Positions 6,137 to 45,636 of a stretch of 47,277 nt of DNA are shown here, piece by piece. The notes beneath the pieces were generated by a model, which searched no databases, was not told where the DNA came from, and was given only the letters and a program-made list of their open reading frames with translations. This DNA is from Bacteroidaceae bacterium (GTDB taxonomy: Bacteria > Bacteroidota > Bacteroidia > Bacteroidales > Bacteroidaceae), in contig JAGAYF010000065.1 of the NCBI GenBank assembly GCA_017940605.1, forward strand, positions 1 to 47,277, written 5' to 3'. The stretch's first letter is position 1, and every line of letters starts with the position of its first letter. A program made the position numbers and the translations under genes.

Positions 6137-6209
6137 GCGCCTTGTCAGTGGTATTTTTGCGCCTTGCCCAATTTTTCTTGGGCCGCATTTGCGCAGTGCT
6201 TGCGCCTTG
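6137..6209 (+). repeat. 73-bp four-block intergenic repeat, copy A
   Basis: Blocks: GCGCCTTG at 6137, GCGCCTTG at 6159, GGGCCGCATT at 6180 and GCGCCTTG at 6202, giving offsets 0, 22, 43 and 65. A T-rich stretch precedes the third block, and here GCCCAA/TTGGGC could pair around it. The copy lies in the 278-bp gap between the convergent flippase and ApbE-like genes, in which I see no other gene. Confidence 0.85.
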
Positions 6210-6324
6210 TTCTTCTTGTTTTGTCGCGGAATCGTTTTGTGCGTCTGCCCTGAAGGGGATATGCGCGGTGGTGGAGGATACAGGATGGACCGTCTTGCTG
6301 TGCCGTGCGGCCGCCGGCGGTGCG

Positions 6325-7161
6325 TCAGTGCAGCGCAACGATGCGCCGCGGCTGATATTCACGGCGCAGTGCGGCCTGCTGTTCCTCGTTGGCCAGAAAC
6401 AGGCTGGTTGACAGCACTTCGCCCTCGGCGGCATCGGTGGTGATGACGGCCACGCCCCGATGGCCTTTGACGTAGTGGCCGTCGTGGGGGTGCAGGATGT
6501 GGCGGCGGTGGGGTGAGTCATTGCCCGAGGTGGTTAGGCACTCATTTTTCAGCACGATGCGTTCGGTCCGTGCGGCCGTGGGCCATGCCGTGGGGTCGAA
6601 GGTCACTTCCCATCCCTCCTTGCCTGGGGGGATGCCCGTGGCCAGTATGGAACTGTTGCCCATGTTGATGAGGGCGCAGCCTATGTCCTCGGCCGTGAGC
6701 AGTCGGCGCGTTTCCTCGAGCGCGTGGCCCTTGAGCATGCCCGACAGGTTGAGCCTGATGCCTTCCTGCAGGAAGTGTACCTGGTGATTGTCCAGGCTGA
6801 CCTGGCCGAGGGTGCGGGACGTGTGGGGCGTGGAGGCGAAGCTGATGTCGAAGAGCCCCTGCGTGCGCTGGTGTTCCTGCTGGCAGTAGCGCAGCAAACG
6901 GCACAGCCGCTCGCTGACCTCTGTGGGGCAGCGGGCGGCTGTTTGGTTCAGCTGGGAGAGTTCACTCTTGGGGTCAAAGCAGTTGGCCGTGGAGCAAATG
7001 TCCTGCAGGAGTTGCGCTATGCGCGCGGCCAACCGGGTGTTTTCTTCCTCCGTGCGGCGGCTCACCCAGAAAAGGTCCACTCGGGTGTGCATGGCGGGAA
7101 ACCAGGTATAGAACAGCGCGTCTCCCGATGCAAGGGGCCGGTGGATGTGGGGGTGTGTCAA
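6325..7161 (-). CDS. ApbE-like FAD:protein FMN transferase
   Basis: Member of the ApbE family, which moves FMN from FAD onto Thr/Ser of flavoproteins such as RnfG/NqrC, normally outside the cytoplasm. Family signatures are visible: NLSGMLKGHALE (usual form DLGGIAKGYAVD), CALINMGNSSILATG, SGNDSPHRRHILHPHDG and the C-terminal EVLSTSLFLA block, where the usual metal-binding Asp is replaced by Glu. No signal peptide is evident, which is unusual. The start is uncertain: I chose the TTG at 7161, six bases after the DUF1080 stop, because LFYTWFPAMHTRVDLFW looks like family sequence. The ATG at 7092 is the alternative. It is the last gene of the oxidoreductase/DUF1080 operon. Confidence 0.75.
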   Translation of the reverse strand: MTHPHIHRPLASGDALFYTWFPAMHTRVDLFWVSRRTEEENTRLAARIAQLLQDICSTANCFDPKSELSQLNQTAARCPTEVSERLCRLLRYCQQEHQRTQGLFDISFASTPHTSRTLGQVSLDNHQVHFLQEGIRLNLSGMLKGHALEETRRLLTAEDIGCALINMGNSSILATGIPPGKEGWEVTFDPTAWPTAARTERIVLKNECLTTSGNDSPHRRHILHPHDGHYVKGHRGVAVITTDAAEGEVLSTSLFLANEEQQAALRREYQPRRIVALH

Positions 7162-7166
7162 GCGGA

Positions 7167-8510
7167 TTAGAGTTCCTTGATTTTGATATTCTTGAACGAC
7201 ACCTCGTCGCCGTGGTCCTGCAGCAGGATGTTGCCCTCGGCGCGGTTGCCAAAGTCGGGCCAGTTGCGGTACTTGCTGTAGGCCACGAGGGCATTCCATT
7301 CCTGGTTGTTGCGTTCATACTCCAGGAGCTTCTCTCCGTTGAGCCAGTGCTCCACATGGTTGTCCTTGACAATGATGACGGCCGTATTGAAGGCGTTGAA
7401 GATGAATGGTTTGTCGTCCGACACGGGTATGAGGTCGTAGAGCGCGCCCAGCTTGCGGTTACCCTTTACGCCGAGCTTGGCATCGGGGTGGCGCTGGTCG
7501 TCGAGTATCTGGAATTCGCAGCCGATGGCCGAGCCCTCGCCCTTGTTCATGTCGGGGTCTACGAAGTACTTGATGCCGCTGTTTGCACCCTTGGTGATCA
7601 TGAAGTCCACGCTAAGGATAAAGTTTCTGTAGGTGCGCGTAGTGACAATGTCACCCCCGTTGGCCGATTCCTTGCCGCCGCTCTTCTGCACTTTCAGCAC
7701 GCCGTTGTCTATCTTCCAGCCTTTCTCGGGGAATGTGGCCAGCCTGGCACCGCGCCATCCATTGGTGGTCTTGCCGTCCCACAGGAGCTTCCATCCGTCT
7801 TTCACTTCGTCGGGCGAAAGGGTGTTGGCAATGCAGTTGGCTTGCGGCGTATGGTCCTTGGGAGTGAGGTATTTCTCCACGTCCTTGGTGCAGATGCGCA
7901 GGTCGCGCCAGGCAATGGTCTTGCCTTCGTTGGCAGCGTCGTAGATCTGATGCACTTGCAGGGCAATGAAGCCCTCGGGTGTCATGTCATCCCAGATGTT
8001 GGCACACGGAATGCCGTTTACCCACGTGCGCACGCTCTTGCCGTAGGCCTCGATGCGGGCTTTGTTCCATTCGTTGTTCTTGTAGGCCGTCTTGGCTGCG
8101 GGATTCTTGATGAGCGGATAGAGCCAGCCGCGGCGGGCCTCGTCGTAAATGCCGCCACTCCAGGCACGCGGGGAGGGATCTATCTCAAACTGGTAGCCGT
8201 GCACGCGGCCGTCCTTGAATTCCTTGAGGCTTTGGCTGCGGAACTGCACGCCCGAGTTGAGAGCGTCGTCTACGCGGAACTCAAACTCCAGGATGAAGTC
8301 GCCGTAGTTCTTCTTGGTGGCCAAGAAGGAGTTGGGCGTGTTCATCTTGCTGTAGCCCACGATGGCATCGTTCTCAATCTTGTACACAGCCTTGCCGTTG
8401 AGCTGCTGCCAGCCCTTGAGGTTCTTCCCATTGAAGAGTTTTTCCCATTGCTGAGCACCGGCGGGCAGGGCGAACAGTGCTCCGAGGAATAGAATGCCTA
8501 TTTTTTTCAT
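7167..8510 (-). CDS. Secreted protein with two DUF1080 (3-keto-disaccharide hydrolase) domains
   Basis: 447-residue exported protein with a Sec signal peptide ([20 protein letters not shown]). It holds two copies of the DUF1080/PF06439 concanavalin-like fold. The first runs from about 22 ([12 protein letters not shown]) to 205, the second from about 237 ([15 protein letters not shown]) to the end. DUF1080 proteins have been linked to cleavage of 3-keto-glycosides made by Gfo/Idh/MocA oxidoreductases, and here two such oxidoreductases are encoded just upstream. The start is the ATG at 8510 because it begins the signal peptide; upstream in-frame codons overlap the preceding gene. Most family members have one domain, so the doubled form may bring two active sites or one binding and one catalytic site. 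Confidence 0.88.
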
Positions 8511-8529
8511 GATTGTCCTTGTTGAGGGT

Positions 8530-11506: not shown

Positions 11507-11540
11507 GCTATCTAATTATCATTAAGTTTATAAGGCTATG

Positions 11541-11548
11541 CAAATTTA
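11541..11548 (-). promoter_or_regulatory. -7 box TAAATTTG of the oxidoreductase operon
   Basis: On the minus strand TAAATTTG matches TAnnTTTG, 34 bases before the ATG at 11506, in a local AT-rich stretch. No TTTG at the canonical -33 spacing. Confidence 0.6.
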
Positions 11549-11710
11549 ATTTTAATTTTTGAGAAAATTAATAAAACAAATGGAAAAAATGCCGCATTTC
11601 CGTGCGACCAGCTCCAGGGGGGTGTCTCGCGCCGGAAGCGCGGCCCTGTTGCGGTGCGGGAAGAAGCGCGAGGGGGTGGGGCAGAACCCCCAGGGGCAAT
11701 CGTGGAGCGG

Positions 11711-11783
11711 CAAGGCGCAAAAGTAGTGAGAATGCGGCCTGAAAAATCACGGGCAAGGCGTGAAAACCCGGCCGACGGGGCGT
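11711..11783 (-). repeat. 73-bp four-block intergenic repeat, copy C
   Basis: Read on the minus strand from 11783: ACGCCCCG (degenerate first block), ACGCCTTG starting at 11761, AGGCCGCATT at 11740 and GCGCCTTG at 11718, again with offsets 0, 22, 43 and 65. ATTTTTC precedes the third block. Both flanking genes are also on the minus strand. Confidence 0.82.
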
Positions 11784-11914
11784 AAAAAACGGCCCGTGTC
11801 GGGGAAACAGCAGAAGAGCGGCCCGAAAGTGCGGTGCTTTCCTCCTGCGGCGAATCCTCGGGCGTGTAGGCGGGACTTGTGTCATGGAGCGGCCCGGGCA
11901 TGCCGCGTTGTGGC

Positions 11915-11953
11915 AAAGAAATATCCCCAAAGTGCCTGTGGCTCTTTGGGGAT
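11915..11953 (-). terminator. Strong hairpin terminator of the SPFH/NfeD operon
   Basis: On the minus strand ATCCCCAAAG pairs perfectly with CTTTGGGGAT. Inside it, GCC/GGC pairs again around a 3-base loop, and ATTTCTTT follows the stem. It lies about 100 bp after the SPFH stop at 12052. Confidence 0.75.
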
Positions 11954-12051
11954 GGATGGTTGCCGTGCCCGTGTGTGGGTGCTTTGCGGCCGGCCGGCGG
12001 CTGGCATGCGGGGCTTGCACCGACGGCCGTCGGGCAGGCTGAGGGGCTGAA

Positions 12052-18785: not shown

Positions 18786-18870
18786 ACGGCACGGACAGTC
18801 ATCGTATGGCCTGTTGGAAATGAGTGCTGCGCGTCCTGTGCTGTGCCATGGGGCGCAAGCGCGGATGCTT

Positions 18871-18943
18871 ACGCCTTGTTGGCGGTGCTTTTGCGCCTTG
18901 CGCAAAATATTTCGGGCCGCATTTGTCCACCTCTGATGCCTTG
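18871..18943 (+). repeat. 73-bp four-block intergenic repeat, copy B
   Basis: ACGCCTTG at 18871, GCGCCTTG at 18893, GGGCCGCATT at 18914 and ATGCCTTG at 18936, with offsets 0, 22, 43 and 65. The last block carries the same AT variant as copy D. It lies in the 253-bp gap between two convergent genes; I see no other feature there. Confidence 0.85.
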
Positions 18944-19038
18944 CAGTTTTGCCTGCATCATGAATGGCAGCAGAAAAGCACCGCATCCCCACCCGCGTGG
19001 CGGCAGGAATGCGGTGCTGTGCGTAGGCGGTTGTGCGG

Positions 19039-21783: not shown

Positions 21784-21828
21784 AAAACAGATTAAAACAA
21801 CAATAACAATAATTAAACACAGAAAACA

Positions 21829-22695: not shown

Positions 22696-22725
22696 TATTC
22701 CCTTTTAAACGATTTTTTTCGCAAG

Positions 22726-23649: not shown

Positions 23650-23694
23650 TCCCATCGGTTCTTAGACTATTCATTTTCTTATTACATTTGATAG

Positions 23695-23722
23695 CCCCGC
23701 TGCTTTGGCAGCGGGGTTTTTT
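23695..23722 (+). terminator. Rho-independent terminator of the FKBP cluster
   Basis: CCCCGCTGC pairs perfectly with GCAGCGGGG around a TTTG loop and is followed directly by six T residues. This is the clearest terminator in the window. Confidence 0.92.
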
Positions 23723-23768
23723 GTTGCTTCGCAGTTTGGCGGGTGCCGACGGCTTGGCAGCGACGGCG

Positions 23769-23841
23769 CAAGGCATCAGGGAGCGGCGAATGCGGCTTGA
23801 AAAAATGCATACAAGGCGCATGAGTTTCATGTTCAAGGCGT
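23769..23841 (-). repeat. 73-bp four-block intergenic repeat, copy D
   Basis: On the minus strand from 23841: ACGCCTTG, GCGCCTTG starting at 23819, AAGCCGCATT at 23798 and ATGCCTTG at 23776, with offsets 0, 22, 43 and 65. ATTTTTTC precedes the third block. It lies antisense to both flanking genes and 47 bp after the FKBP terminator. Confidence 0.85.
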
Positions 23842-24068
23842 AAAAACGGGAAACAACGGGCTGGGGAGCATGGCGGTCACCCTCCTGCCGGTTGGCTTTT
23901 GGGGATGGGCTGTCGGGGGGCATGATGGATGCGTCCGGCATGTCCTTTCCGGTTGCCGCCGATGGGTGGAGGTTCGTGGGTTGGTGTACCCCGACTTGCA
24001 ATTTGTAGTCCCAAACTTGCCCAAAAAGAACAAAATGCATGATTTTTGTGAATATTTTTGCCAAAAAT

Positions 24069-24099
24069 TTTGCAAATGGAAAATAAAGATGTAATTTTG
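24069..24099 (+). promoter_or_regulatory. Full Bacteroidetes promoter of the Lrp/AsnC gene
   Basis: -33 element TTTG (24069-24072), 19-bp spacer and -7 box TAATTTTG (24092-24099), the textbook arrangement, 23 bases before the ATG at 24123. Confidence 0.8.
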
Positions 24100-24122
24100 T
24101 AACAATTCAAAAGATAAACCAG

Positions 24123-28138: not shown

Positions 28139-28156
28139 GATGATGAATAAATGGGT

Positions 28157-28175
28157 GATTCCCGTGGTTGGAATC
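28157..28175. terminator. Weak bidirectional hairpin between convergent sufE-like and ccsBA-like genes
   Basis: GATTCC pairs with GGAATC across a 7-base loop, followed by GTGATTTCTTG. It is short and the T-tract is broken. The same bases carry a 15-codon open frame described in the findings. Confidence 0.3.
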
Positions 28176-28216
28176 GTGATTTCTTGAAGGGTCGGGTGTT
28201 TTTCCTTAAGTTTGCG

Positions 28217-30247: not shown

Positions 30248-30275
30248 GCCGATGGTGTCGGGTGTCAGTGTGGTG

Positions 30276-31403: not shown

Positions 31404-31416
31404 TGTTTAATTGTGA

Positions 31417-32151
31417 TTATTTTTTAGCTCCTGCGTTGATCCAATCTTCAAAGAGTTTTTGCATGCGCTCGCGTACGACTTCCTGAGTATGGTCATAAAG
31501 CCAATGGTCATCTTTACTTAAGGATGTTGTAAGGGCTAGAAAGAGGACACTGTTCGTAGCATCCCCAGCTTCTACAATATTCATTCCGCTGACTTTTGTG
31601 GAGGGGTGGTTTACAATGCCATCGTAGCTTTTCCCCTCTGTCAGATTCAGGTTTGCAGCTACAAAGTTACTGCCTCCGTGGCAATTGACGCATGTGGTAT
31701 TGAAAACTTTTTGCTGTATGGCTTCAAACATTCCTAAATTTATGTTGTCAGCTTCAATGCGGATAGTGTCATTTTTGCCTGCGGCGGTGACATCTTCACC
31801 TTCTACCTTGAGAAATGTGACAACACGTTGTCGTAGACGATTGACCATGCATAATTCGACGGAGGAAGTGCTGTCGGGTATGTTTGACAATGTCATATTT
31901 AATTTTCCATTGTCAAAATCTCGAATGTATTTCAGAAGAATTGCATAATCACTGGTTTCGCTGAAAGCCGCAAAGGCAAGAGTGTAGCCATTGGCCCATG
32001 TCTTGGCGTCTGTTGCTAAGCCAACATTCAGTTTGGCGACCTTTCCTTCCTTTGTTGTATTGTATGTTTCTGTCAGGTTGCCATCATCGCACGAAGACAA
32101 TCCGCAAGCAAGAATGCATACCAACAATATAATACTTAAAAGATGCTTCAT
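31417..32151 (-). CDS. c-type cytochrome lipoprotein, single heme
   Basis: 244 residues. Lipoprotein signal ending GLSSC with lipidated C21 followed directly by DDGN, an acidic tag like the Bacteroidetes surface-export signal. One heme-c site, C154-V-N-C157-H158, sits in a cytochrome-like C-terminal domain (about 140-244, with LNLTEGKSYDGIVN and a later Met as possible sixth ligand). The N-terminal 130 residues are unlike known cytochromes. It starts 17 bp before the porin end and is clearly part of the operon. Probably surface-exposed electron carrier, inferred from the tag. Confidence 0.85.
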   Translation of the reverse strand: MKHLLSIILLVCILACGLSSCDDGNLTETYNTTKEGKVAKLNVGLATDAKTWANGYTLAFAAFSETSDYAILLKYIRDFDNGKLNMTLSNIPDSTSSVELCMVNRLRQRVVTFLKVEGEDVTAAGKNDTIRIEADNINLGMFEAIQQKVFNTTCVNCHGGSNFVAANLNLTEGKSYDGIVNHPSTKVSGMNIVEAGDATNSVLFLALTTSLSKDDHWLYDHTQEVVRERMQKLFEDWINAGAKK

Positions 32152-32168
32152 CTTTTTGCGGAGATTAT

Positions 32169-33383: not shown

Positions 33384-33423
33384 GTGAGTATTAATTCTGT
33401 TATTATTTTATTTCTGTAATGAT

Positions 33424-34857
33424 TTATAATGACCATAGAAAAGCAACCAATGCATTACGTTGCTCTTTCGTCATATTTTTGAAAATATTTTTAGAGGCTT
33501 CTCCTTCGCCTCCATGCCACATGATGGCTTCTACAAAATTACGGGCGCGGCCGTCATGCAAGAAATAAGTATGACCATTTACAATTTGTTGTAATCCAAT
33601 TCCCCAAAGAGGGGTAGTGCGCCATTCATTTCCACGTGCCAGTCCGCTGACGTAGTTATCATTCAATCCAACGCCCATGATTTCTGAACCCATGTCGTGC
33701 AGTAAATAGTCACTATATGGATGAATGGTTTGATTTCCTAACCATGGAAGTTCCGTGCCGTTGAGGAGGACGGCTCCGCGCGGTTGTGTGTGTAGCGTGG
33801 TTACATGACACAGATGGCATCCTGCTTTGTAGAACATCTGCTCTCCGAGTTTTACTTGAGGATCGTTGATGTTACGGCGTGCGGGAACACTGATGGCGTG
33901 CATGTATAAATCAACATTTTCCATTTCCTCTGTGGTTACATCTAATTGGTCGTAGCTCAATCCCATCATGCTTCCCTCTTCCATTTGTGCCTGGCCCTCA
34001 CATATTTCTTCAGGGTAGCGGCTGTTAGTCGCTCCCAAGTCACTGGAGAAACCCAATTCTACAGTTAAGTCGGCATGTTGTGCCTTGTTGCCCGATAAGC
34101 CTAATTGCAGTTTTCCGCGTTCATTGATATAGTTGCATCGGCCGCTGATACCCCATTCAGGGTAGTTGCTTTTTTGTGCCAATTTTTCTATTTCATTTCG
34201 GTCAATGGCCATCATCTGCCCCATGCCTACGTGGCGTAATGGGATGCGGACAGTGCAAAATAAGTCTTCAGGTCTAATGCTGTCGGCGTACCAATCAGTA
34301 ATGGTATATACGGGATAGCAGAGTTCGTAATTCTCTCCATCTGGAAAAGAAAAGGTTTGGTAGATTTTGTCAATCTTGACTTTCCCTTCGGGTCTGACTC
34401 CTAATATGGCCTGGTCGTGAAGAACACGGCCATATTTTTGGAAAAATGCTCCATTCTTGCGTGTAATGTAAATCAGCATGGAGGAAAAACCATAATTGCC
34501 TGAGCCTTCGCTGCTCCACAAGGCTGGTTGTGTCCTTCCTGCGTTTCGATGACAGCTTCCGCAGGAGTAGCCTGCATAGACTGGCCCTAATCCGCCATTT
34601 CTTCCATTGTTACTTGTCCTTACATCATCATACAGGGCATCTCCTCTGTTAAATCGTGTCTTCATTGTGCCGCTTACCCAACTGGCATCCTTGTCATAGG
34701 CCAAAGATGATGTCATGAAATTTGTGGATGTGCCTGCAGACAAAGCAAACCCCGATGGAATTTCGATGTCAAGAACGTCCAGACCATCTTCGTCATTGCA
34801 TGAAATCAGTAGCGCCGCAAGTAGAATACATGTAATATATTTAGTCCAACTGTTCAT
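33424..34857 (-). CDS. Di-heme oxidoreductase (DHOR/DUF1111) lipoprotein
   Basis: 477 residues. Lipoprotein signal ending LLISC with C20 followed by NDEDG, an acidic surface-export-like tag. Two heme-c motifs: C99-G-S-C102-H103 and C347-H-L-C350-H351, the spacing of the DHOR/MauG-related family often found next to imelysins in Gram-negative bacteria. Conserved LPWLGNQTIHPYSDYLLHDMG and TPPLWGIG-like blocks are present. The start is the ATG at 34857, beginning the lipoprotein signal; the upstream frame from 34896 adds a charged, non-conserved extension. Proposed role: redox chemistry on metal or peptide at the cell surface. Confidence 0.88.
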   Translation of the reverse strand: MNSWTKYITCILLAALLISCNDEDGLDVLDIEIPSGFALSAGTSTNFMTSSLAYDKDASWVSGTMKTRFNRGDALYDDVRTSNNGRNGGLGPVYAGYSCGSCHRNAGRTQPALWSSEGSGNYGFSSMLIYITRKNGAFFQKYGRVLHDQAILGVRPEGKVKIDKIYQTFSFPDGENYELCYPVYTITDWYADSIRPEDLFCTVRIPLRHVGMGQMMAIDRNEIEKLAQKSNYPEWGISGRCNYINERGKLQLGLSGNKAQHADLTVELGFSSDLGATNSRYPEEICEGQAQMEEGSMMGLSYDQLDVTTEEMENVDLYMHAISVPARRNINDPQVKLGEQMFYKAGCHLCHVTTLHTQPRGAVLLNGTELPWLGNQTIHPYSDYLLHDMGSEIMGVGLNDNYVSGLARGNEWRTTPLWGIGLQQIVNGHTYFLHDGRARNFVEAIMWHGGEGEASKNIFKNMTKEQRNALVAFLWSL

Positions 34858-34896
34858 AATGAAGCAGTATTTTTGATGATTCTTAATTTTACCCAC

Positions 34897-34932
34897 AAAG
34901 GCGGAGACGCTCCAAACAGCGTCTCCACCTTT
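34897..34932. terminator. Strong intercistronic hairpin between imelysin and di-heme genes
   Basis: AAAGG, one mismatch, then GGAGACGCT pairs with AGCGTCTCC, one mismatch, then CCTTT, around a 6-base loop. In the direction of the operon (minus) no long U-run follows, so it may act as an attenuator or mRNA-stability element rather than a full stop. Confidence 0.6.
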
Positions 34933-34953
34933 CTATATGAGTTGGTTTTATTG

Positions 34954-36120
34954 TTAGTTATTTACTTTGCGTGCTTTTCCGTCTTTGAAGATTAAGTATT
35001 CCAATGTATGGAATCCACGAAGTGCCTGTACTTGTTCAATAGTTTCGCTTTCTTCATCGTACTCGCCTGTCCAAACCAGGGCTGCCCAGTCTTTGCTCTT
35101 CATGATCTGAACTATACCTGCTTGATCCAATGGCCATGAATCCATGTTGGGGTCTAAGCCTTTGTCAGCAACAGGACCAAAGAGGAAGGCTTCGCTGCTT
35201 TCCCAAGGCGTACGTGCAGTGAACCAAGCATCAGCACATCTTTGGAATGCTGCATCGCTGGGATTTGTCTGGAAGGCAATAACGGCATTGTTCAACTGGG
35301 TGTTTGCTTCCTGCAGTTCTTTATATGTTGGCAGTACGACAACGTCGACATAATTTTTCACAACAGGATCTAAAACCTCGTCAGTATTAATCTCACTATT
35401 TTCATGGATGAAAGGCTTCAAGGTGTTGTCCAAGAAATCTTCCAGGTCAGCACAGGCATCCATAGCTGCTGCAACTTCATCGGCATCAATGTTGTTGCGG
35501 AAAGGAGCGGGAATGTTTTCAATGGCATCGATAGCACCTTGAATCAGTTCCTTTGCCTGGTTGTCCAGTTCCTCGTTGACCGATGCAACAACGGCAGAAA
35601 TGGATGCTTCTGCTACGCGACCATCGCGGCTGCCAAAGTATGCGTTGCGAATGGAGCGGATGTTATTGGAGTAGTCCTCAATGGAGTGCCAGCTGTACCA
35701 AGATTCCACCATGAAAAGAGCATCTTCTTTGTTGCCCTTAAGATATTCATGGTAGGGATCGCCAATTTTTGCAGATCCAACTTCGCCGGCGATGTCCGTG
35801 CAGCCATCAATGATTTGTTCCACGCAATTTAGGGCACTGTTAAAGCCGGCAGTTCCGTTATGCTCCTTGAAAACATCGGCATAGCCTTTGCCTGATTCGT
35901 TGTAGGAAGTGTTCCACTCGTTGTAAAGTGTTGTTGCGTCTTCCTTCAGCAGGTTTGCCACGACGCGCATGTAGTTGCCCCATGCTTGTGCGTTGCTGGA
36001 GTTGTAATCCAAGGTCTTGGCGTCTCCGTCAAAGCCGCCATTCTTGTTGTCGTCACCGCAAGCGGTGAATACGGTGAGTCCTGCAAAGAGGACTGCAATC
36101 ATCAAAAATAATTTTTTCAT
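34954..36120 (-). CDS. Imelysin family (M75-like) lipoprotein, putative iron-binding
   Basis: 388 residues. Lipoprotein signal ending VFTAC with C21 followed by GDDNKN, again an acidic tag suggesting surface exposure. The imelysin GxHxxE motif is G369-F-H371-T-L-E374, and the conserved WESSEAFLFGPVADKGLDPNMDSWP block is present. Imelysins were named as insulin-cleaving proteases but many bind iron and act in ferrous-iron uptake (EfeO/IrpA-like); protease activity is uncertain for this branch. It is the second gene of the operon, 35 bp after the first porin. Confidence 0.9.
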   Translation of the reverse strand: MKKLFLMIAVLFAGLTVFTACGDDNKNGGFDGDAKTLDYNSSNAQAWGNYMRVVANLLKEDATTLYNEWNTSYNESGKGYADVFKEHNGTAGFNSALNCVEQIIDGCTDIAGEVGSAKIGDPYHEYLKGNKEDALFMVESWYSWHSIEDYSNNIRSIRNAYFGSRDGRVAEASISAVVASVNEELDNQAKELIQGAIDAIENIPAPFRNNIDADEVAAAMDACADLEDFLDNTLKPFIHENSEINTDEVLDPVVKNYVDVVVLPTYKELQEANTQLNNAVIAFQTNPSDAAFQRCADAWFTARTPWESSEAFLFGPVADKGLDPNMDSWPLDQAGIVQIMKSKDWAALVWTGEYDEESETIEQVQALRGFHTLEYLIFKDGKARKVNN

Positions 36121-36155
36121 CGTTACAAAATTTATTGTTTAGATAAGTGTAAATA

Positions 36156-37541
36156 TTATTTCTTAAAGAACCAGCCGATATAGGCCAACCCGACGGCCCA
36201 TTCGTTTTCGCTGTTGTAGCTGCCTTTTCCAAAAACCTTCCGTGTCCCTATCTGGCGCGTGTTATAGTCAGCCTTTACGACCAGATTGGGTAGCGGTTTC
36301 CAGTTCATGCCCACGGTCCATTTGCTCACTTGGCAACGGTCGTCCATCGCTGAAAGCGAAGATTCTCCTTCCTCCTGTGTATTATAATATGTATAGTGGG
36401 CAAAAGGATAGATGGCAGGGAAATTTTCTACGTTGGGAAAGAAACTTTTCACATTGAGTCCCACTTCTGCGCTATAGGTCAGTGCACGCTTGGCCACCGC
36501 TGGCGTGCGGTTGTATGGGGATTTGTTCGAATAAGTGCGGTTGATGGAACTGATTCCATTGGCTTTGGCCACGTTTCCTGTGATGATATTGGCACGTGCG
36601 GTGACATATCGGCCGACGTATTGTCCGTCAAACGACCATATTCTAACAGGGATTTTCCCGACAGAACCATAGGTGATGAGTTTGTCGGCATTCTTTCCCG
36701 CGTTGTCGCAATAGTAGAAAGCTCCTCCCAGACGCAGGCCCGGAACACCGGTCCAATTCAGGCGCAATACGTATGCCGGCGAAGTAAAGTTGTCTGTTTC
36801 AAAATAATTCTGCTTTCCTTTCTGAATCCAGTTGTATTTATCAAAACCGTTGGGGTTCGGTCCGGCTATAATCATAGCTTCATAATCAAATTTGGCCAGT
36901 CTGCTGCCAAAGTTGCCAAAGAATTCCAGACCTGTTTCGTGCCATGTTGACGGTAAAAGCGTCGTTTCACCCTCGGGCCGACTTGTCCCGAAGAAATTAA
37001 TCGGTTCATGGTGCGTGTTGGTCAGGCCAACGGGGACGATCATATGGCCGGCACGCACATTAAACTGAGGTATAATCAAGCGAGTAATGTGAAACTGTTC
37101 CAATGCCACTTCTCCGCCCGTTTCCGTCTCGGTTTCGTATTCTCCGTTCTCGCTTCCTGAACCCTTCTCTATCTCATATTCCGTGCCAGTGCCGCCTCCT
37201 TCAAATTCGATTTCACTGCTCAAGATCCATTTGGAAGAGAACTTGTAGTCCATGGCGATAATAAAACGCGGAATCGAGATTTCGGCATGATGGCGCTTAG
37301 TGTTTCCTGACAAAGAGCCATTCCATCTGTTTAAACCATAGTCTTTCCAGTTGGCCAGCATTTCACCGTATCCTCCAATGCGGAATTTGTATCCACCTTG
37401 GTTGTCTCCTTCCTGCCCAGGCTGAAGGACGGCCTTTGTGTTCTCGTCCTCGGCTTCCTGTGCGCCAACCACCGCAGGCATGGCCATGACAGCCATGATA
37501 GCCATGATGCATGCGGCTATTTTTACAATGTACTTCTTCAT
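36156..37541 (-). CDS. Outer-membrane porin (OprO/P-like), first of the operon
   Basis: 461 residues with a signal peptide (MKKYIVKIAACIMAIMAVMA and cleavage near VVGAQ). Long alternating amphipathic strands and a terminal aromatic stretch (GLAYIGWFFKK) mark it as a beta-barrel. It contains an acidic loop (ETETETGGEVA, about 134-144). GYGEMLANWKDYGLNRWNG and HITRLIIPQFNVRAGHMIVPVG match OprO/P-type porins of Bacteroidetes. The start is the ATG at 37541, shortly downstream of a -7 box. It opens the low-GC seven-gene operon. Confidence 0.85.
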   Translation of the reverse strand: MKKYIVKIAACIMAIMAVMAMPAVVGAQEAEDENTKAVLQPGQEGDNQGGYKFRIGGYGEMLANWKDYGLNRWNGSLSGNTKRHHAEISIPRFIIAMDYKFSSKWILSSEIEFEGGGTGTEYEIEKGSGSENGEYETETETGGEVALEQFHITRLIIPQFNVRAGHMIVPVGLTNTHHEPINFFGTSRPEGETTLLPSTWHETGLEFFGNFGSRLAKFDYEAMIIAGPNPNGFDKYNWIQKGKQNYFETDNFTSPAYVLRLNWTGVPGLRLGGAFYYCDNAGKNADKLITYGSVGKIPVRIWSFDGQYVGRYVTARANIITGNVAKANGISSINRTYSNKSPYNRTPAVAKRALTYSAEVGLNVKSFFPNVENFPAIYPFAHYTYYNTQEEGESSLSAMDDRCQVSKWTVGMNWKPLPNLVVKADYNTRQIGTRKVFGKGSYNSENEWAVGLAYIGWFFKK

Positions 37542-37576
37542 ATTGTCATTTTTTATGGGGTAAATCTTTTCGAGTG

Positions 37577-37584
37577 CAAAATTA
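37577..37584 (-). promoter_or_regulatory. -7 box TAATTTTG of the surface-cytochrome operon
   Basis: Exact consensus on the minus strand, 35 bases before the ATG at 37541. An ATTG 20 bp upstream (37605-37608) may be a one-mismatch -33 element. No second consensus box is seen within the operon, consistent with one main transcript. Confidence 0.72.
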
Positions 37585-37717
37585 GAACGATAATTTAGAT
37601 GCCACAATACCCAAATTTTAGGAAATCATGTTATCGAGGATACCCAAAAATGAGTACTTCCTGCCCGAAAAAGCAAATATGGAGGGTGGGGAACGGCCTT
37701 GTCTAAAGATAAAATCG

Positions 37718-37725
37718 TAATTTTG
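37718..37725 (+). promoter_or_regulatory. -7 box TAATTTTG of the acyltransferase gene
   Basis: Exact consensus 21 bases before the ATG at 37747, divergent from the operon promoter at 37577. Confidence 0.72.
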
Positions 37726-37746
37726 TGCCAATAAATAGGTATTGAT

Positions 37747-38856
37747 ATGCAAAATCAACGTATAGTATTCTTGGATTATGTCCGCGTGTTTGCTTGTTTT
37801 TTGGTCATCTTGGTACACGCGTCCGAAAACTTCTATGCCTCCGATGCCTCGGGCTTGGGAGGCCCTGTCTCCCTGTTGCTCAATGAGCAAAACAGGTTGT
37901 GGGTGTCGGTCTATGATGGATTTTCCCGCATGTCCGTTCCATTGTTCATGATCATCTCGGCCTATCTGCTCGCTCCCATGCCTGAGGGACAGTCCATGCT
38001 CTCATTCTACAAGCGGCGTGCCTTGCGCATACTGCCGCCGGTCATATTCTTCATGTTGCTCTATACATTCCTGCCCCTTCTTTGGAATGGCATGTCGTGG
38101 GAACAGTCATGGACGGATCTCAGGAATCTTCCGCTGAATTTTCCCTCCATGGCGGGCCACTTGTGGTTTATATATCCGCTCATAAGCCTGTATCTGATCA
38201 TCCCCGTCATATCTCCCTGGCTTGAAAAGGCATCGGCCAAGGAGGAGCTTGTCTTTGTGGGGCTGTTTGTCCTGTCCACTTTCATGCCATACATGCACCG
38301 TTGGCTGTGGCCCGAGTTGTGGGGTGAATGCTTCTGGAATGAATTTCACATGCTCTGGTATTGCTCTGGTTTCCTGGGCTACCTGGTGCTTGCCCACTAC
38401 ATCAGGAAGCATCTTCGCTGGAACATTCGCAAGCGGGTGTGGGTGGGCGTCGTCAGCGTCTTGGTGGGTGCATTCTTTACCATGTTCCCGTTCTATTACC
38501 AAGGCGTTCCCGGTCGTGTCATCGCCACTCCGGTGCTGGAAGTTGCGTGGGCATTCTGTACCCCCAATGTCGTATTGCTCACCTTCGGGGCTTTCATTCT
38601 CTTTTCGTGCATACGCACCCTTCGTGCCCCTGCATGGCTGACGGCTGTCAGCCGCTTGTCGTTTGGTATCTACCTGATGCACCTGTTCTTCCTCAACATG
38701 TGGGCACAATGGCTTGTCAACGGAAATCCTGCTGAACCGTTGCTGCCCGTGGCCGTCACCATTCCGCTCATGGCAGTGCTGACGTTTGTCACCTGCGTGG
38801 TTGTAGCCAGGCTGGTCTCGTTCCTGCCTGGCAGCAAATGGGTGATAGGAGCCTGA
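37747..38856 (+). CDS. Acyltransferase family 3 membrane protein (WecH/OafA-like)
   Basis: 369 residues, about ten transmembrane helices. The N-terminal IVFLDYVRVFACFLVILVHAS carries the family Arg and catalytic His (H24). SVPLFMIISAYLL, FYKRRALRILPP and GHLWFIYPLISLYLIIPVI are the standard blocks of acyltransferase 3. These enzymes use cytoplasmic acyl-CoA to acylate sugars of lipopolysaccharide or other surface glycans, or succinylate membrane glycans. No SGNH domain is attached and no glycan genes are close by, so the acceptor is unknown. It is high-GC again, marking the right border of the AT-rich operon, and converges on the barrel gene at 38867. Confidence 0.93.
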   Translation: MQNQRIVFLDYVRVFACFLVILVHASENFYASDASGLGGPVSLLLNEQNRLWVSVYDGFSRMSVPLFMIISAYLLAPMPEGQSMLSFYKRRALRILPPVIFFMLLYTFLPLLWNGMSWEQSWTDLRNLPLNFPSMAGHLWFIYPLISLYLIIPVISPWLEKASAKEELVFVGLFVLSTFMPYMHRWLWPELWGECFWNEFHMLWYCSGFLGYLVLAHYIRKHLRWNIRKRVWVGVVSVLVGAFFTMFPFYYQGVPGRVIATPVLEVAWAFCTPNVVLLTFGAFILFSCIRTLRAPAWLTAVSRLSFGIYLMHLFFLNMWAQWLVNGNPAEPLLPVAVTIPLMAVLTFVTCVVVARLVSFLPGSKWVIGA

Positions 38857-38866
38857 TCCCTATTAT

Positions 38867-39538
38867 TTAAAATGGTATGCGGTATCCAAGCGTGAACAGC
38901 ATGGATACATTCTTGGCGTGGTGGCCCTTGCTGACGTTGAGCAAGCCCCAGTCGACCTCTATTCCTGCGTTGATCATCCGGCTGAATTCGTATCCGGCCC
39001 CCAGGGTCAGGCCTGCGTCTATGCGGTGCATGTCTTCCTGGCTGAATGTGTTCTGCGAGTAGAAGAAACGCGCAGAACCCTGCAGGCTGGTGTCGCCTCG
39101 GGTCTTGCGCTTGCCACCGATGCCGTAGGCCAGGTACGGACCGGCGGTGAACATGATGTAATGGGGCGTTTGCAACGGTATATAGTAGTTGAGCAGCAGC
39201 GGTAGGACCAAGTAGTTGGCATTGGTCGTCACGTTCATCACGCCCGTGCGCTCATTTCCTGCATCGTCAAGGACGATGTTGCCCTGGTCGTCGTAGATAT
39301 AGACGGTTTTATCCTTGTCCTTCCAACCTTTGGCAAAGTACAGCAAGCCTGGCTCAAACGTAAGGGTCTGACTGAACTCGAGCTCCAGGCTGAGGCCTGC
39401 CTTGAACGTGCCGATCATGCGGTCCGATGCGCCATGCCGTGTGGCCAGGCCGCCGCCGGTGTGGAACACCAAATGCTGGGCTGCCAACGGGGCGGCAATG
39501 CACACCGACATGAGGCAGGCCAGGAACAGGCGTCTCAT
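38867..39538 (-). CDS. Small outer-membrane beta-barrel protein (PorT/OmpA-barrel-like)
   Basis: 223 residues. Signal peptide MRRLFLACLMSVCIAAPLAAQ and an eight-strand barrel-like pattern: FKAGLSLELEFSQTLTFEPGLLYF, YLVLPLLLNYYIPLQTPHYIMFTAGPYLAYGIGG, GLTLGAGYEFSRMINAGIEVDWGL and a terminal LFTLGYRIPF. This is the outer membrane beta-barrel family very common in Bacteroidetes; its role is unknown. It overlaps the stop of the helicase gene by ATGA, so the two are translationally coupled. The start 39538 is chosen at the signal peptide; an upstream in-frame ATG lies inside the helicase. Confidence 0.85.
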   Translation of the reverse strand: MRRLFLACLMSVCIAAPLAAQHLVFHTGGGLATRHGASDRMIGTFKAGLSLELEFSQTLTFEPGLLYFAKGWKDKDKTVYIYDDQGNIVLDDAGNERTGVMNVTTNANYLVLPLLLNYYIPLQTPHYIMFTAGPYLAYGIGGKRKTRGDTSLQGSARFFYSQNTFSQEDMHRIDAGLTLGAGYEFSRMINAGIEVDWGLLNVSKGHHAKNVSMLFTLGYRIPF

Positions 39539-41298
39539 GATTTCTTGTTTTTGTGGTAGGGGCGGTGTCTCCTGTTTTCCCAAAAGGGTACTTGAGCGGC
39601 CCGGGACTCGCGGTCGCGGTCTCTCTGCTTTTTCTTGCGGGGCTTGCCTGCGTGTTCGTTCTGCTCGGCACGTTCCAGGTTGACGGGCCGGCCGTTGATG
39701 ACGATGTTGCGCATGGCATTCTCAAGCATGGCGGCTTGATGCTCGGGTACTTCAAAGAATGAAAAGTTGTTCATCAGGTCAATGCGGCCCACCTGGATGG
39801 TCTTGCGTGAGCATCGGTTCAGTAGGCCCAGCAGCTCGCGTGGGTACAGGCCGTCGCGCTTGCCCAGGGCCAGGAAGAAGCGTACATATCCCTCCTCGGC
39901 TTCGCCCCTGGGGCGGTTGGAACGTTCGCCGCGCCTTGTCTTTTCGTGTTTCTCCTTTTTCTCACGCCCGGGTTGCGGTTCTTCTATTTCGGGTGCGTTG
40001 GCATAGTACTCCAGGAAGCGTCCGAACTCAATGGTGACAAACCGCTTGATGATTTCTTCCTTGTCCAGCCAGTCCAGCTTGTGGAACACCTCGGGCATGA
40101 ACGGCTCAATGGCTGCTTCGTCCACGTCGGTGCGCTCCAGGTGGTCAATGGCGTTGAAGAGCTGCTTTGCGCAGATGTCGTGTGGGTTGGGAAGGCTCAT
40201 GTGCACAAATTTCTTGCCGATGGTCTTCTCTATGGAGCGAATCTTGCCTTGTTCGCGCATGTGGACGATGCAGATGCTCGTCCCCTTCTTGCCTGCGCGG
40301 CCCGTGCGGCCGCTTCGGTGGGTGTACTGCTCAATGTCGTCGGGCAGGCCGTAGTTGATGACGTGCGTCAGGTCGTCCACGTCCAGGCCGCGGGCGGCCA
40401 CGTCGGTGGCCACCAGCAGTTGCGTGTTGTGGTGGCGGAATTTGTTCATCGTGATGTCGCGCTGTGCCTGGCTCAGGTCGCCGTGCAGGGGTTCGGCGTC
40501 GTATCCGTCGGCTATGAGGTTGTCGGCAACTTCCTGCGTCTCCACCTTGGTGCGGCAGAAGATGATGGCAAAAATCTTGGGATAGTAGTCGACGACGCGC
40601 TTGAGGGCTGCATATTTGTCGTTGGCGCGCACCATGTAGTATTCGTGGTTCACCAGCTCGGCCCCCTCGTTGCGTGAACCGATGACGACCTCTTCGGCAT
40701 TGTGCAGGTACTTGCGCGCAATGCGCTCTATCTCTTTGCTCATCGTAGCGGAGAAGAGCAGCGTGGTGTGTTCCTCGGGCAGGGCTTCGAAGATGCGGCT
40801 GATATCCTCGGAGAAGCCCATGTTCAGCATTTCGTCGGCCTCGTCCAGCACGATGCGCGTCACTTGCTCCAGGCGTGCGGCCTTCCGCTCGTACAGGTCG
40901 ATGAGGCGGCCCGGGGTGGCAATGATGATGTGCACGCCGCGCTTCAGGGCACGTATTTGGCGTTCTATGCTCGTACCGCCGTAGACGGGCAGGACGTGCA
41001 GGTTGGGTATATACTTGGAAAAGTCGGTCAGGTCGCCGGCTATCTGCAGGCACAGCTCGCGCGTGGGGCACACCACGAGCGCCTGGGTGGCGTTGACGCT
41101 GGTGTCAATGTGCTGCACCAGGGGAATGCCGTAAGCGGCCGTCTTGCCCGTGCCGGTCTGGGCCAGGCCCACAAGGTCGCCCGTGCTGTTCAGCAGGCGC
41201 GGAATGACTGCCTCTTGTATGGGCATGGGCGAGGCAAAGCCCAGTTCTTCAATGGCCTGAAGTACAGGCTCAGTAAGGCCAAGTTCTTGAAATGTCAT
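39535..41298 (-). CDS. DEAD-box RNA helicase with DbpA-type RNA-binding domain (CsdA/DeaD-like)
   Basis: 587 residues. All helicase motifs are present in order: Q motif (PMPIQ, 24-28), AQTGTGKT (46-53), PTRELCLQ, GG, TPGR, DEAD (152-155), SAT, DVAARGLD and HRSGRTGRAG. After the helicase core comes a charged linker and a DbpA-like RNA-recognition domain (about 470-545, VRFFLALGKRDGLYPRELLGLLNRC), then a basic tail (KPRKKKQRDRDRES). It unwinds RNA, likely in ribosome assembly or cold adaptation. The start is the ATG at 41298; the ATG at 41313 is almost at the expected transcription start given the -7 box at 41324. Confidence 0.95.
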   Translation of the reverse strand: MTFQELGLTEPVLQAIEELGFASPMPIQEAVIPRLLNSTGDLVGLAQTGTGKTAAYGIPLVQHIDTSVNATQALVVCPTRELCLQIAGDLTDFSKYIPNLHVLPVYGGTSIERQIRALKRGVHIIIATPGRLIDLYERKAARLEQVTRIVLDEADEMLNMGFSEDISRIFEALPEEHTTLLFSATMSKEIERIARKYLHNAEEVVIGSRNEGAELVNHEYYMVRANDKYAALKRVVDYYPKIFAIIFCRTKVETQEVADNLIADGYDAEPLHGDLSQAQRDITMNKFRHHNTQLLVATDVAARGLDVDDLTHVINYGLPDDIEQYTHRSGRTGRAGKKGTSICIVHMREQGKIRSIEKTIGKKFVHMSLPNPHDICAKQLFNAIDHLERTDVDEAAIEPFMPEVFHKLDWLDKEEIIKRFVTIEFGRFLEYYANAPEIEEPQPGREKKEKHEKTRRGERSNRPRGEAEEGYVRFFLALGKRDGLYPRELLGLLNRCSRKTIQVGRIDLMNNFSFFEVPEHQAAMLENAMRNIVINGRPVNLERAEQNEHAGKPRKKKQRDRDRESRAAQVPFWENRRHRPYHKNKKS

Positions 41299-41323
41299 GG
41301 GTAAAAAATGCAAAAATCGGGTG

Positions 41324-41331
41324 CAAAGTTA
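41324..41331 (-). promoter_or_regulatory. -7 box TAACTTTG of the helicase gene
   Basis: Exact consensus on the minus strand, 25 bases before the chosen ATG at 41298 and only 10 before the ATG at 41313. Confidence 0.72.
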
Positions 41332-41526
41332 CGAATAAAATCCGTATCTTCTTGTATTTGAACGATAAGTTTTTGCATTTCAGGCCCGATGCCCCAAAAA
41401 GGACGGTCCGGCCGTGCCGCTGATGGCGCGGGGGAGGGGCGAGACGCAGGGAGGGTGTCTTGTGGCGTGCGGATGGCTCGGCCCTCGCGGACAATGGGTG
41501 CATATTGGGCGAGTAAGGCGTTTCTT

Positions 41527-41599
41527 GCGCCTTGTTCGTGCCAGTTTTACGCCTTGCGGCCATTTTTTCAGGCCGCATTCATGGGCATTTTGCGCCTTG
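41527..41599 (+). repeat. 73-bp four-block intergenic repeat, copy E
   Basis: GCGCCTTG at 41527, ACGCCTTG at 41549, AGGCCGCATT at 41570 and GCGCCTTG at 41592, with offsets 0, 22, 43 and 65. GCGGCC and GGCCGC flank the T-tract and could pair in this copy. TTCTTCT follows the last block, as in copy A. Both neighbouring genes are on the other strand. Confidence 0.86.
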
Positions 41600-41712
41600 T
41601 TCTTCTGCGTTTGATGGGAATAATGCTTTCAGCCCCTTTCCCGTCGGGGGAATGGGGTCGGTCAAGGCCTCCATGAACGGGGATGGGGGCGCGGAAAGGG
41701 GAAGGGGAAAAA

Positions 41713-44155: not shown

Positions 44156-45388
44156 ATGAAAGAATACAAGTTACTGGTGCTGGACGTGGACGGCACATTG
44201 CTGAACAGTGCGCATGAAATCACGCCTCGCACGCGCGATACCTTAATAAAGATACAGCAGATGGGGGTGCGCATCGTCTTGGCCTCGGGACGCTCGCCCC
44301 ATGGCCTGAACGCGATTGTCAGGCAACTGGATATGCACCGCCACGGCGGCTATGTGATTGCCTTCAACGGTAGCCTGATCTATGACGCGCAGACTGAGGA
44401 GGTCCTCTTCGAGCGTTGCGTCAGCCCCGAACTGCTTCCGTTCCTGGAGCGCAAGGCGCACCAGTACGGATTCCCCATATTCACCTACAGCAACGAGGCC
44501 ATCATCACCGACACGCCCAACCAGCCGCGCATCATGGCCGAGGCGGAGCTGAACGGCCTGCCCGTGCGCCACGAGGAACTGTTCAGCATACAGGTGGACT
44601 TTGCTCCGTGGAAGCTGGTGCTTGTCAACGAGGACGAGGCCTCGATGGCGGAACTCTATGAGCGCTGGAAGCGCCGCCTGTCGGGCACGGCCGAGGTGCA
44701 CCGCTCGGAAAAGTTCTTCCTGGAAATCCTTCCGCCGGCCATCGACAAGTCCATGGCCTTGGGGGCTTTGTTGCAGAAGCTGGATGTCAAGGCTGAGGAC
44801 GTGGCCGCCATAGGCGACGGCGTGCGCGACATAGGATTGCTGCAGATGGCGGGCGTGGGCATTGCCATGGGCAATGCTGCGGAGTCGGTGCGCGCGTGCG
44901 CGGACTCCATTACCGACACCAACGACCGCGACGGCGTGGCCAAGGCGGTGGAGCAGGCCATCGACGCGTACCGCCAGCCCGAAAACCTGCCGCTGGAGGA
45001 GATAAACCGCATGATGGCCTCGTCCATGATTGGCCACCTGGGCATAACGTTCACCTATGCGGCCGAGGGGCGCGTGGAAGCTACGATGCCGGTGGACCTG
45101 CACACGCGCCAGCCGTTTGGCATCCTGCATGGCGGCGCGTCGCTGGCATTGGCCGAGACCGTGGCCGGCCTGGGGTCCATGCTGTGCATAGCTCCCGATG
45201 AGCATGCCGTGGGAATGCAAATCAGCGGCAACCATGTGTCGTCTGCCCATGAGGGCGACACCGTACGCGCGGTGGCAACGCTGGTCCACAAGGGGCGGCA
45301 CAGCCACCTGTGGTCGGTAGACATCTCCACATCGACGGGCAAGCTGGTCAGCACCGTGCGCGTGCTCAACAGCATCCTGCGAAAATAA
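44156..45388 (+). CDS. Fused Cof-type HAD phosphatase and hotdog (PaaI/MenI-like) thioesterase
   Basis: 410 residues in two enzymes. Residues about 1-270 are a HAD-IIB Cof-type phosphatase: nucleophile D10-V-D12-GT, ASGRS (motif II), a conserved Lys in IDKSMAL, and GDGVRD, where the usual GDxxND Asn is Arg. Residues about 278-410 are a hotdog-fold thioesterase with GILHGGASLALAETVAG, holding the family catalytic Glu. This branch includes 1,4-dihydroxy-2-naphthoyl-CoA thioesterase of menaquinone synthesis and phenylacetyl-CoA thioesterase; no menaquinone genes are nearby. Start codon supported by the promoter. Confidence 0.9.
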   Translation: MKEYKLLVLDVDGTLLNSAHEITPRTRDTLIKIQQMGVRIVLASGRSPHGLNAIVRQLDMHRHGGYVIAFNGSLIYDAQTEEVLFERCVSPELLPFLERKAHQYGFPIFTYSNEAIITDTPNQPRIMAEAELNGLPVRHEELFSIQVDFAPWKLVLVNEDEASMAELYERWKRRLSGTAEVHRSEKFFLEILPPAIDKSMALGALLQKLDVKAEDVAAIGDGVRDIGLLQMAGVGIAMGNAAESVRACADSITDTNDRDGVAKAVEQAIDAYRQPENLPLEEINRMMASSMIGHLGITFTYAAEGRVEATMPVDLHTRQPFGILHGGASLALAETVAGLGSMLCIAPDEHAVGMQISGNHVSSAHEGDTVRAVATLVHKGRHSHLWSVDISTSTGKLVSTVRVLNSILRK

Positions 45389-45435
45389 GTGCCATCCAGG
45401 TAAAAGTCTGTGCCATGCGGCAGGACATTCATCTC

Positions 45436-45462
45436 GGGGACAGCTCCGTCGGGGCTGCCCCC
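45436..45462 (+). terminator. Probable terminator after the HAD-hotdog gene
   Basis: GGGG, one mismatch, then CAGC pairs with GCTG, one mismatch, then CCCC around a 9-base loop. GTTCTTGTTG follows, an imperfect T-rich tail. Confidence 0.5.
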
Positions 45463-45563
45463 GTTCTTGTTGTGCCGCAATGTGCTTTTGGCGCGCCCTA
45501 AATGGTTTGAGACCAATTGTTTGCCGATACAGATAGTCAATGGGGCGTGCGCGCCTTTTTCTT

Positions 45564-45636
45564 ACGCCTTGTATGCTGTTTTTTTACGCTTTGCGTAGAT
45601 TTTTTCGGGCCGCATTGGGCCGTCTTTTGCGCCTTG
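45564..45636 (+). repeat. 73-bp four-block intergenic repeat, copy F
   Basis: ACGCCTTG at 45564, ACGCTTTG at 45586, GGGCCGCATT at 45607 and GCGCCTTG at 45629, with offsets 0, 22, 43 and 65. Strong T-tracts precede each block. GCGCTGCCA after the last block resembles the same place in copy D. Both flanking genes run in the same direction. Confidence 0.85.

Follow-up and report, generated by a model that had tools for sequence, protein, structure and literature searches.

What could be served by a 73-bp sequence that recurs six times between the genes of a single bacterial contig, with four short blocks at invariant offsets and widely differing letters between them? The question is raised by a stretch of 47,277 nucleotides from a Bacteroidaceae bacterium (contig JAGAYF010000065.1 of GenBank assembly GCA_017940605.1), here called the window, which is contig C38 of a 66-contig draft of 2,014,376 bases that is 73% complete (genome G000). 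The first-pass annotation had described the six copies and had preferred a helically phased protein-binding array to a decayed transposon. All six were found at the positions and on the strands given there; each is exactly 73 bp long, with blocks at offsets 0, 22, 43 and 65. In the following list, A stands for a unit of T-tract plus RCGCCTTG and B for T-tract plus RGGCCGCAT (R, purine).

6137..6209, plus strand: array 1, order AABA, cores at 6137, 6159, 6180 and 6202, in a gap between convergent genes
11711..11783, minus strand: array 2, order AABA, first A reads ACGCCCCG, flanked by two minus-strand genes
18871..18943, plus strand: array 3, order AABA, in a gap between convergent genes
23769..23841, minus strand: array 4, order AABA, B core reads AAGCCGCAT, flanked by two plus-strand genes
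41527..41599, plus strand: array 5, order AABA, upstream of a DEAD/DbpA helicase gene
45564..45636, plus strand: array 6, order AABA, second A reads ACGCTTTG, flanked by two plus-strand genes

Two details of the first description had to be amended. The substitutions reported for arrays 2 and 6 are present, and there is one more, in the third block of the 23.8-kb copy (AAGCCGCATT). A T-tract does stand before the third block as described, yet it is not confined to that place and precedes most blocks.

A scan of the whole draft showed that the six copies belong to a far larger family. The literal four-block pattern has seven exact matches; with up to three mismatches, it has 62 (29 on the plus and 33 on the minus strand), against 0 for the reversed pattern. 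Patterns for the single junctions gave 146 matches for A-B, 77 for B-A and 111 for A-A, where the reversed controls gave 1, 0 and 0, respectively; of these matches, 100 of 146, all 77 and 100 of 111 were listed and used as places. A sequence-only profile (A1, R1) built from the 62 matches found 121 at E≤1, weak partial ones among them, and the best 111 were scored. Merging the profile hits above 36 bits with the places listed results in about 156 arrays on 54 of the 66 contigs, an approximate count, as it comprises the listed matches only and a few places known solely from A-B may be due to chance. Identical arrays stand at the ends of contigs C6 (27,510) and C27 (27,607); these probably represent a single locus, or else a longer repeat at which the assembly broke off.

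The distances between the blocks turned out to be rigid. Of 117 hits scoring above 30 bits, 97 kept exactly 22/21/22 although each step could deviate by ±4 bp. This is far tighter than chance, so the refuting condition given with the first description, a spacing as loose as chance would leave it, does not apply. A few of these 97 also contain a weak block; in the other 20, one block or more scores below 4 bits, and several are arrays in another order. A unit-by-unit parse of 455,773 bases gave 118 arrays of at least two units with 353 neighbour steps, 316 of which fall into three classes: A to A at 22 bp (106), A to B at 21 bp (106) and B to A at 22 bp (104). The other 37 reflect mostly a missing middle unit or a mistaken assignment of A and B. 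With respect to order, 60 of the 118 arrays read AABA and 18 ABAA, followed by AAABA and AABAA (3 each) and 34 other or degenerate ones; the dominance of the first two indicates a common core A-21-B-22-A, to which one A is added on either side.

The letters between the blocks, described at the outset as widely different, behave like independent draws from the column frequencies. Among 95 arrays, the variance of spacer identity was 0.0101, compared with 0.0093±0.0005 in column shuffles, and the best pair of spacers reached an identity of 0.80 (0.77 in shuffles). There are no close pairs among these copies; since recent self-copying would leave such pairs, we rejected recent transposition and regard the family as not recently moving. 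A larger conserved element around the array was likewise rejected for G000, because conservation fades to near zero outside about -22 to +95 (29 and 62 copies). Decay alone would not retain blocks and steps under saturated spacers, and we take both to be under selection, judging by these sequences.

The composition of the arrays is phased with the DNA helix, and the phase extends beyond them. Across positions -22 to +96, the guanine-plus-cytosine (GC) percentage oscillates at 10.8 bp with a power of 1.69, to which the second harmonic of the 22-bp step contributes, and with 0.77 at 21.5 bp; controls reached 0.01 and 0.04 at 10.6 bp and have a 7.0-bp component of 0.05-0.06. The oscillation continues into the unconserved flanks of 69 of 92 copies, those with further units having been dropped, with P<0.0005 at -90 to -30 and at +100 to +160 and P=0.0035 at +160 to +220. 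Unexpectedly, a component of 7.0 bp is also present over most of the flank length; this value is close to the third harmonic of 21, and 10.8 bp to the second. With the A profile as a score, downstream peaks appear at 86, 107, 128, 171 and 234, and the inverted unit gave upstream peaks at -15, -36, -57, -99, -141 and -202, with a few others besides. When step lengths were tried every 0.5 bp in 72 of the 92 copies, 21.0 bp folded best on both sides (z=7.9 and 5.4 versus random shifts). Because single flank sites score far below background, this signal is a faint composition pattern and not a set of extra binding sites. The phased composition reaches roughly 100-200 bp to either side of the array. 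Such arms emerge statistically from 92 copies taken together, not from any single one, and the result needs repeating in another genome. If the copies in the window have arms, these would lie in the following gaps, which have no strand of their own.

6047..6324: intergenic gap around array 1, would contain weakly phased arms
11507..12051: intergenic gap around array 2, would contain weakly phased arms
18786..19038: intergenic gap around array 3, would contain weakly phased arms
23650..24122: intergenic gap around array 4, would contain weakly phased arms
41314..41712: intergenic gap around array 5, would contain weakly phased arms
45389..45777: intergenic gap around array 6, would contain weakly phased arms

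Where the arrays lie on the chromosome was determined with newly called genes. As in the window, where the copies had been described as intergenic, in both orientations, between convergent and co-directional genes, 112 of 113 arrays are clear of called genes; the last one overlaps an open reading frame at the end of the sequence stretch analysed, and five of the 113 have no called neighbour on one side. The 108 arrays that could be classed comprise 39 in co-directional gaps with the same sense as the genes, 22 in co-directional gaps with the opposite sense, 32 in convergent and 15 in divergent gaps. Median distances are 129-149 bp to gene 3' ends and 202-260 bp to gene starts. Considering gaps of at least 200 bp in 202 kb, an array is held by 8 of 11 convergent and 19 of 27 co-directional gaps and by only 1 of 10 divergent ones (P=0.0007 for divergent versus 27 of 38 others); these stretches were mostly chosen because they bear arrays, so that the proportions are biased upward.

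Moreover, the arrays keep a distance from each other. Among the matches listed, there are 102 neighbouring pairs with a median distance of 7.65 kb; 75 are less than 10 kb apart, and the shortest distances are 3,919, 4,001, 4,042 and 4,144 bp. None of 98 pairs lies below 3.9 kb, where random placement of the same array numbers on contigs of known length predicts 32.6 (minimum 21 in 2000 runs). A stricter null model drew random gaps in twelve larger stretches containing 16 pairs (5000 draws). For minimum gap lengths of 60, 100, 150 and 200 bp, it predicts 7.3, 6.1, 4.7 and 3.8 pairs below 3.9 kb, with none observed (P=0.0000, 0.0004, 0.0014 and 0.0070, respectively). The weaker arrays at C15:18138 and C6:21490 also respect the minimum distance, and the stretches of 0.9-2 kb examined on each side of most arrays contain no second array above 36 bits. 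Polarity with respect to replication was considered and rejected, as the orientation of neighbours is random: it is the same in 53 of 102 pairs in G000 and in 36 of 66 in the related genome G008. On G008 contig C17, the same strand carries nine of the ten arrays listed over 290 kb, and several of the steps between them measure about 18 kb; other contigs of that genome are mixed, and neighbour orientation is random overall. In the window, the longest array-free stretch is 23842-41526 (17.7 kb), which nevertheless includes four gaps of at least 200 bp.

The letters of the arrays appear to be confined to this genome, whereas the design is not. With up to three mismatches, the four-block pattern was found in 1 of 61 genomes, its own, and 18 genomes of the same genus were negative. 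In 40 other genomes, the R1 profile found nothing better than E=0.036, and the 19 genomes with a match at E≤1 are what noise would give. Among 84,980 GTDB species genomes, from which the record of G000 may be missing, the A-B junction gave seven single hits in unrelated phyla, with about four expected by our own arithmetic; a search of IMG/VR found no match. The nearest relatives are distant: the four best helicase matches have identities of 73-75%.

The non-coding DNA of three same-genus genomes (G004, G008 and G010) was searched blind for 6-mer pairs recurring at a fixed distance, and each of the three has dispersed 21-22-bp arrays with other cores. The scan of related Bacteroidales suggested with the first description therefore needs changing: the relatives examined share the build and not the letters. 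Repeats at 22 bp of AGGCCT in G004 and of TAGTAT in G010 were among the strongest blind signals. By eye, the cores of G004 are AGGCCTG at 0/22/44/66, the first often degenerate; those of G010 are CGGCCG, CCGCCCG, CCGCCCG and CGGCCG at 0/22/44/66; and those of G008 are CGCCTTC, CGGACCT, CCGACCTT and AAGGCG at about 0/22/43/64. In G008, the first version of the search yielded a 21-bp TTTAAAC repeat and the second was led by a different repeat with 19 copies. The interpretation of TTTAAAC as a plain palindrome was replaced by the four-core reading after comparison across genomes, and both features are present. Stretches L133-L152 of G008 also contain GCGGTTTGATGTAGGAT, another dispersed repeat, with some 19 copies over 374 kb, and the self-distance scan of this genome has a further peak at 65/66 bp.

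The parallel families resemble the arrays of G000 in location and, in the two genomes checked for it, in wide spacing. All 39 profile-found places in sampled stretches of the three relatives (9, 9 and 21) lie outside called genes. G008 has 88 copies forming 66 neighbouring pairs, with a minimum of 5,634 bp and a median of 17.9 kb; none of 47 pairs is closer than 5.6 kb, compared with 11.7 expected (minimum 2 in 5000 runs). For G004, the 13 pairs among 100 of 430 exact matches listed have a minimum of 5.3 kb. The elements of all three are longer than those of G000 and their copies more alike, in G008 over about 220 bp. Beside two window arrays, the one at the helicase and the one before the gene at 24123, the orthologous gene of a relative has a differently lettered array of its own (G004 L123:9648-9864, upstream of the helicase orthologue, and G010 L130:5485-5633).

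Outside the genus, 22 bp is the top non-coding self-repeat distance in G023, a genome of another genus of the same family, where a number of distinct arrays, each in few copies, account for this weaker signal (6 of 154 segments). A strict period scan with 12-bp triple units found no segment at 22 bp in G000, since the steps alternate 22/21/22; the scan for 6-mer self-pairs found 22/43/65. G023 also contains paired AGTGAGG/CCTCACT repeats with conserved flanks (L243:2152 and 4027, L247:12405 and 12918, L253:16969), which twice flank a short stretch in opposite orientation and look like a family of recombination or insertion sites.

Taken together, rigid spacing, missing base-pair covariation (see below), the lack of close pairs and the phased flanks favour the protein-binding array of the first-pass annotation over a decayed transposon. 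Tentatively, and with somewhat less than even confidence, we propose that the arrays are nucleation or wrapping sites for a candidate chromosome-organising protein, spaced between transcription units. Rigid two-turn steps with free spacers suggest that linked subunits read one face of the helix; one protein oligomer might contact all four cores, A and B being two forms of its site. Similarly, the phased arms suggest bending or wrapping of the outer DNA in that register; from the array outward, in either direction, the DNA might wrap or become coated with a repeat of two turns (21 bp). The placement between units, the depletion in divergent promoter gaps and the minimum distance fit a role at the level of the chromosome better than the regulation of single genes; spaced nucleation sites might serve to hold chromosomal loops or supercoiled domains, or to insulate them, between transcription units. 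Among the species of the genus, the binding specificity would change and the build would be retained. How bacteria position chromosomal loops and supercoil domains has no settled answer, and the barriers involved are commonly regarded as dispersed and poor in sequence signals; a sequence-specific, intergenic, distance-keeping DNA code that is re-lettered between species would make the question directly testable. For this purpose, the arrays offer a known sequence for pull-down and some 150 positions predicted as anchors, and related species provide natural replicates.

Several observations weigh against this proposal. Protein binding, wrapping, the chromosomal role and a co-evolution of letters and protein are what we infer from sequence. 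The flank phasing was found by exploration in one genome; it is not significant at -150 to -90 (P=0.075) and -210 to -150 (P=0.90), and it persists at +220 to +280 (P=0.0045), where genes begin. The Fourier periods of the flank peaks range from 20.5 to 21.2, and the opposite strand is also significant (z of 5.1 and 2.6), which leaves the strand unsettled. With respect to spacing, the 3.9-kb cut-off was taken from the data itself, closer pairs may exist beyond the 100 of 146 and 100 of 111 places listed, and the longest interval, C22 8,976-81,966, extends over 73 kb without a listed array. In G008, weak or partial copies lie nearer to full ones: adjacent (L140), at about 3.1 kb (L139) and at about 4.4 kb (L151). 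Array positions are not clearly shared with orthologous sites of the relatives (3 of 25 versus 2 of 92, P=0.065), and the longer elements of the relatives, above all the near-perfect inverted ends of the G010 element, resemble mobile elements. Finally, the blocks vary more than column shuffles (0.0041 versus 0.0028±0.0003, 95 arrays); the copies may differ in quality or share some ancestry.

A wider version of the proposal is more doubtful still: a whole bacterial family might mark its chromosomes every 5-20 kb or so with phased multi-core arrays that nucleate a DNA-wrapping organiser, letters turning over while build and spacing persist. So far, it draws on four genomes of one genus, with spacing determined in three, and on the weaker period-22 signal of one genome from another genus. 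A turnover of recognition letters between species is familiar from satellite and PRDM9-type sites in eukaryotes.

The alternative that survives best, which we nonetheless consider unlikely, is an old non-autonomous mobile family in which the 21-22-bp cores are end sites for a transposase, target immunity kept the copies apart, and everything except the sites has decayed. The end sites of Mu and Tn7 measure 22 bp. Like the arrays, they stand in small arrays and are associated with a minimum distance of several kb; the cis-immunity of Mu is strongest around 5 kb (PMC7350765). The hard minimum distance is what such immunity would leave, and the alikeness of G008 copies over about 220 bp as well as the inverted ends in G010 point the same way. 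The steps of 22/21/22 were compared with them by size only, in which they match. In contrast to Mu and Tn7, the arrays have no visible second end or cargo and no close copies, no conserved ends were found in G000, and no such transposase was detected. Two transposase families were searched, G000 being 73% complete. The Mu/TnsB C-terminal domain (PF09299) is absent from G000, G004, G008 and G010, as it is from 14 control genomes, so that the reach of this search is undemonstrated; it occurs in 1 of 19 genomes of the genus (G003). The Y1 (RAYT) transposase has no match in G000, G004 and G008 and one in G010, and is present in 4 of the 19. The preservation of blocks and spacing under saturated spacers also speaks against a mobile origin, as it indicates that something still uses them. 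Target immunity is the main rival for the distance rule, and it leaves the preserved blocks unexplained. If this explanation applied, the arrays would document immunity on a genome scale with unusual clarity, their sites having outlasted the rest.

A comparison with other repeat families did not result in an identification. Plasmid iterons are direct repeats in helical phase at one origin, and matS and Noc sites are many dispersed single short sites for one protein without a four-core grammar; the arrays share the phased direct repeats of the former and the dispersal of the latter, and differ from both in being dispersed with four cores. REP units are palindromes associated with Y1 transposases. 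Their hairpin-forming palindromic unit was not found in the arrays, which show no covariation and a weak fold; array units are direct, G000 has no Y1 match, and the arrays follow a chromosomal spacing rule. More than 100 intergenic copies, mosaic modular units and species-specific letters are features common to the arrays and REP/BIME (general features; compare PMC2817692). Terminal inverted repeats and similar full-length copies, as in miniature inverted-repeat transposable elements (MITEs), were not found in G000. The genomes searched included no second strain of this species in which filled and empty sites or target duplications might be compared. BrickBuilt of Porphyromonas gingivalis is likewise dispersed and intergenic, and its direct repeats of 23 nt span about two helix turns; it has 19 copies, in which the number of repeats varies, and inverted ends resembling the IS5 family (PMC4596501). 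Identity with BrickBuilt was rejected, as the letters of the 23-nt repeat consensus given there are unrelated by eye (PMC4596501). A full-length alignment to a known insertion sequence or MITE end would have contradicted the array idea; as far as this was examined, there is no sequence conservation beyond about -22 to +95, BrickBuilt has other letters, and two transposase families were not found in G000. Among the open-licence PubMed Central papers listed by the literature searches, no title or abstract opening describes evenly spaced 22-bp arrays in this group, and the passages of PMC12306157 that were read contain nothing on this order.

Rather improbable is the explanation that the arrays are strong sites for DNA gyrase, a topoisomerase, with phased GC- and AT-rich segments wrapping DNA for supercoil control between transcription units. 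The Escherichia coli gyrase motif extends over 130 bp with a GC periodicity of 10.75 bp, and gyrase cleaves some intergenic BIME-2 elements (PMC6379681). The arrays lie between transcription units, and their 10.8-bp periodicity over more than 70 bp agrees with that of strong gyrase sites (10.5-10.8 bp over about 130 bp). However, gyrase reads DNA indirectly by means of a motif that is degenerate and symmetric (PMC6379681), whereas the arrays have a grammar and sharp, species-specific cores of 7-8 bp. The expected mirror symmetry of GC is weak, with a best r of 0.50 at +35.5 (standard deviation over centres 0.29); the palindrome identity at the mirror centre is 0.34, compared with a mean of 0.23.

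That the arrays are operators of a large regulon acting on neighbouring genes is very unlikely. Rigid spacing and sequence-specific cores would suit this function, and in co-directional gaps the array orientation slightly favours the direction of the genes (39 versus 22, P=0.04). Yet two gene ends flank 32 of the 108 arrays, divergent promoter gaps are poor in arrays, and a regulon leaves the minimum distance unexplained. In addition, the six array-neighbour proteins among ten window proteins scanned belong to mostly unrelated families.

That the gap is transcribed into a structured RNA, a terminator or a processing element is less probable still. In some copies, GAAATTTTTC between blocks 2 and 3 may fold, by eye, as a small hairpin, and the flanks are mildly richer in hairpins than shuffles, which is no surprise in the vicinity of terminators. 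An analysis of covariation, proposed when the copies were first described, gave no compensatory change between distant columns, the strongest couplings joining neighbouring ones. The consensus fold amounts to -1.9 kcal/mol and only one of six pairs has any double change; RNA structure was rejected on these two grounds. Besides, the window contains no Rfam match at gathering scores, and the arrays occur in both orientations relative to genes. On this sequence evidence, the element is best described as double-stranded DNA, not RNA, and as not recently moving.

Chance, contamination or an assembly artefact has practically no weight: the genome is an incomplete draft with one locus probably present twice (C6/C27), yet this reading is already excluded by the reversed-pattern controls, and the spread of the arrays over most contigs and the parallel family in a better assembly (G008) contradict it as well.

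With respect to the remaining content of the window, ARAGORN detected no tRNA gene, and the ten proteins scanned belong to ordinary families. The FKBP-type gene at 22726-23649 shares 157 nt at 72% and 31 nt at 90% identity with its upstream neighbours; the region 21743-23625 is a local duplication.

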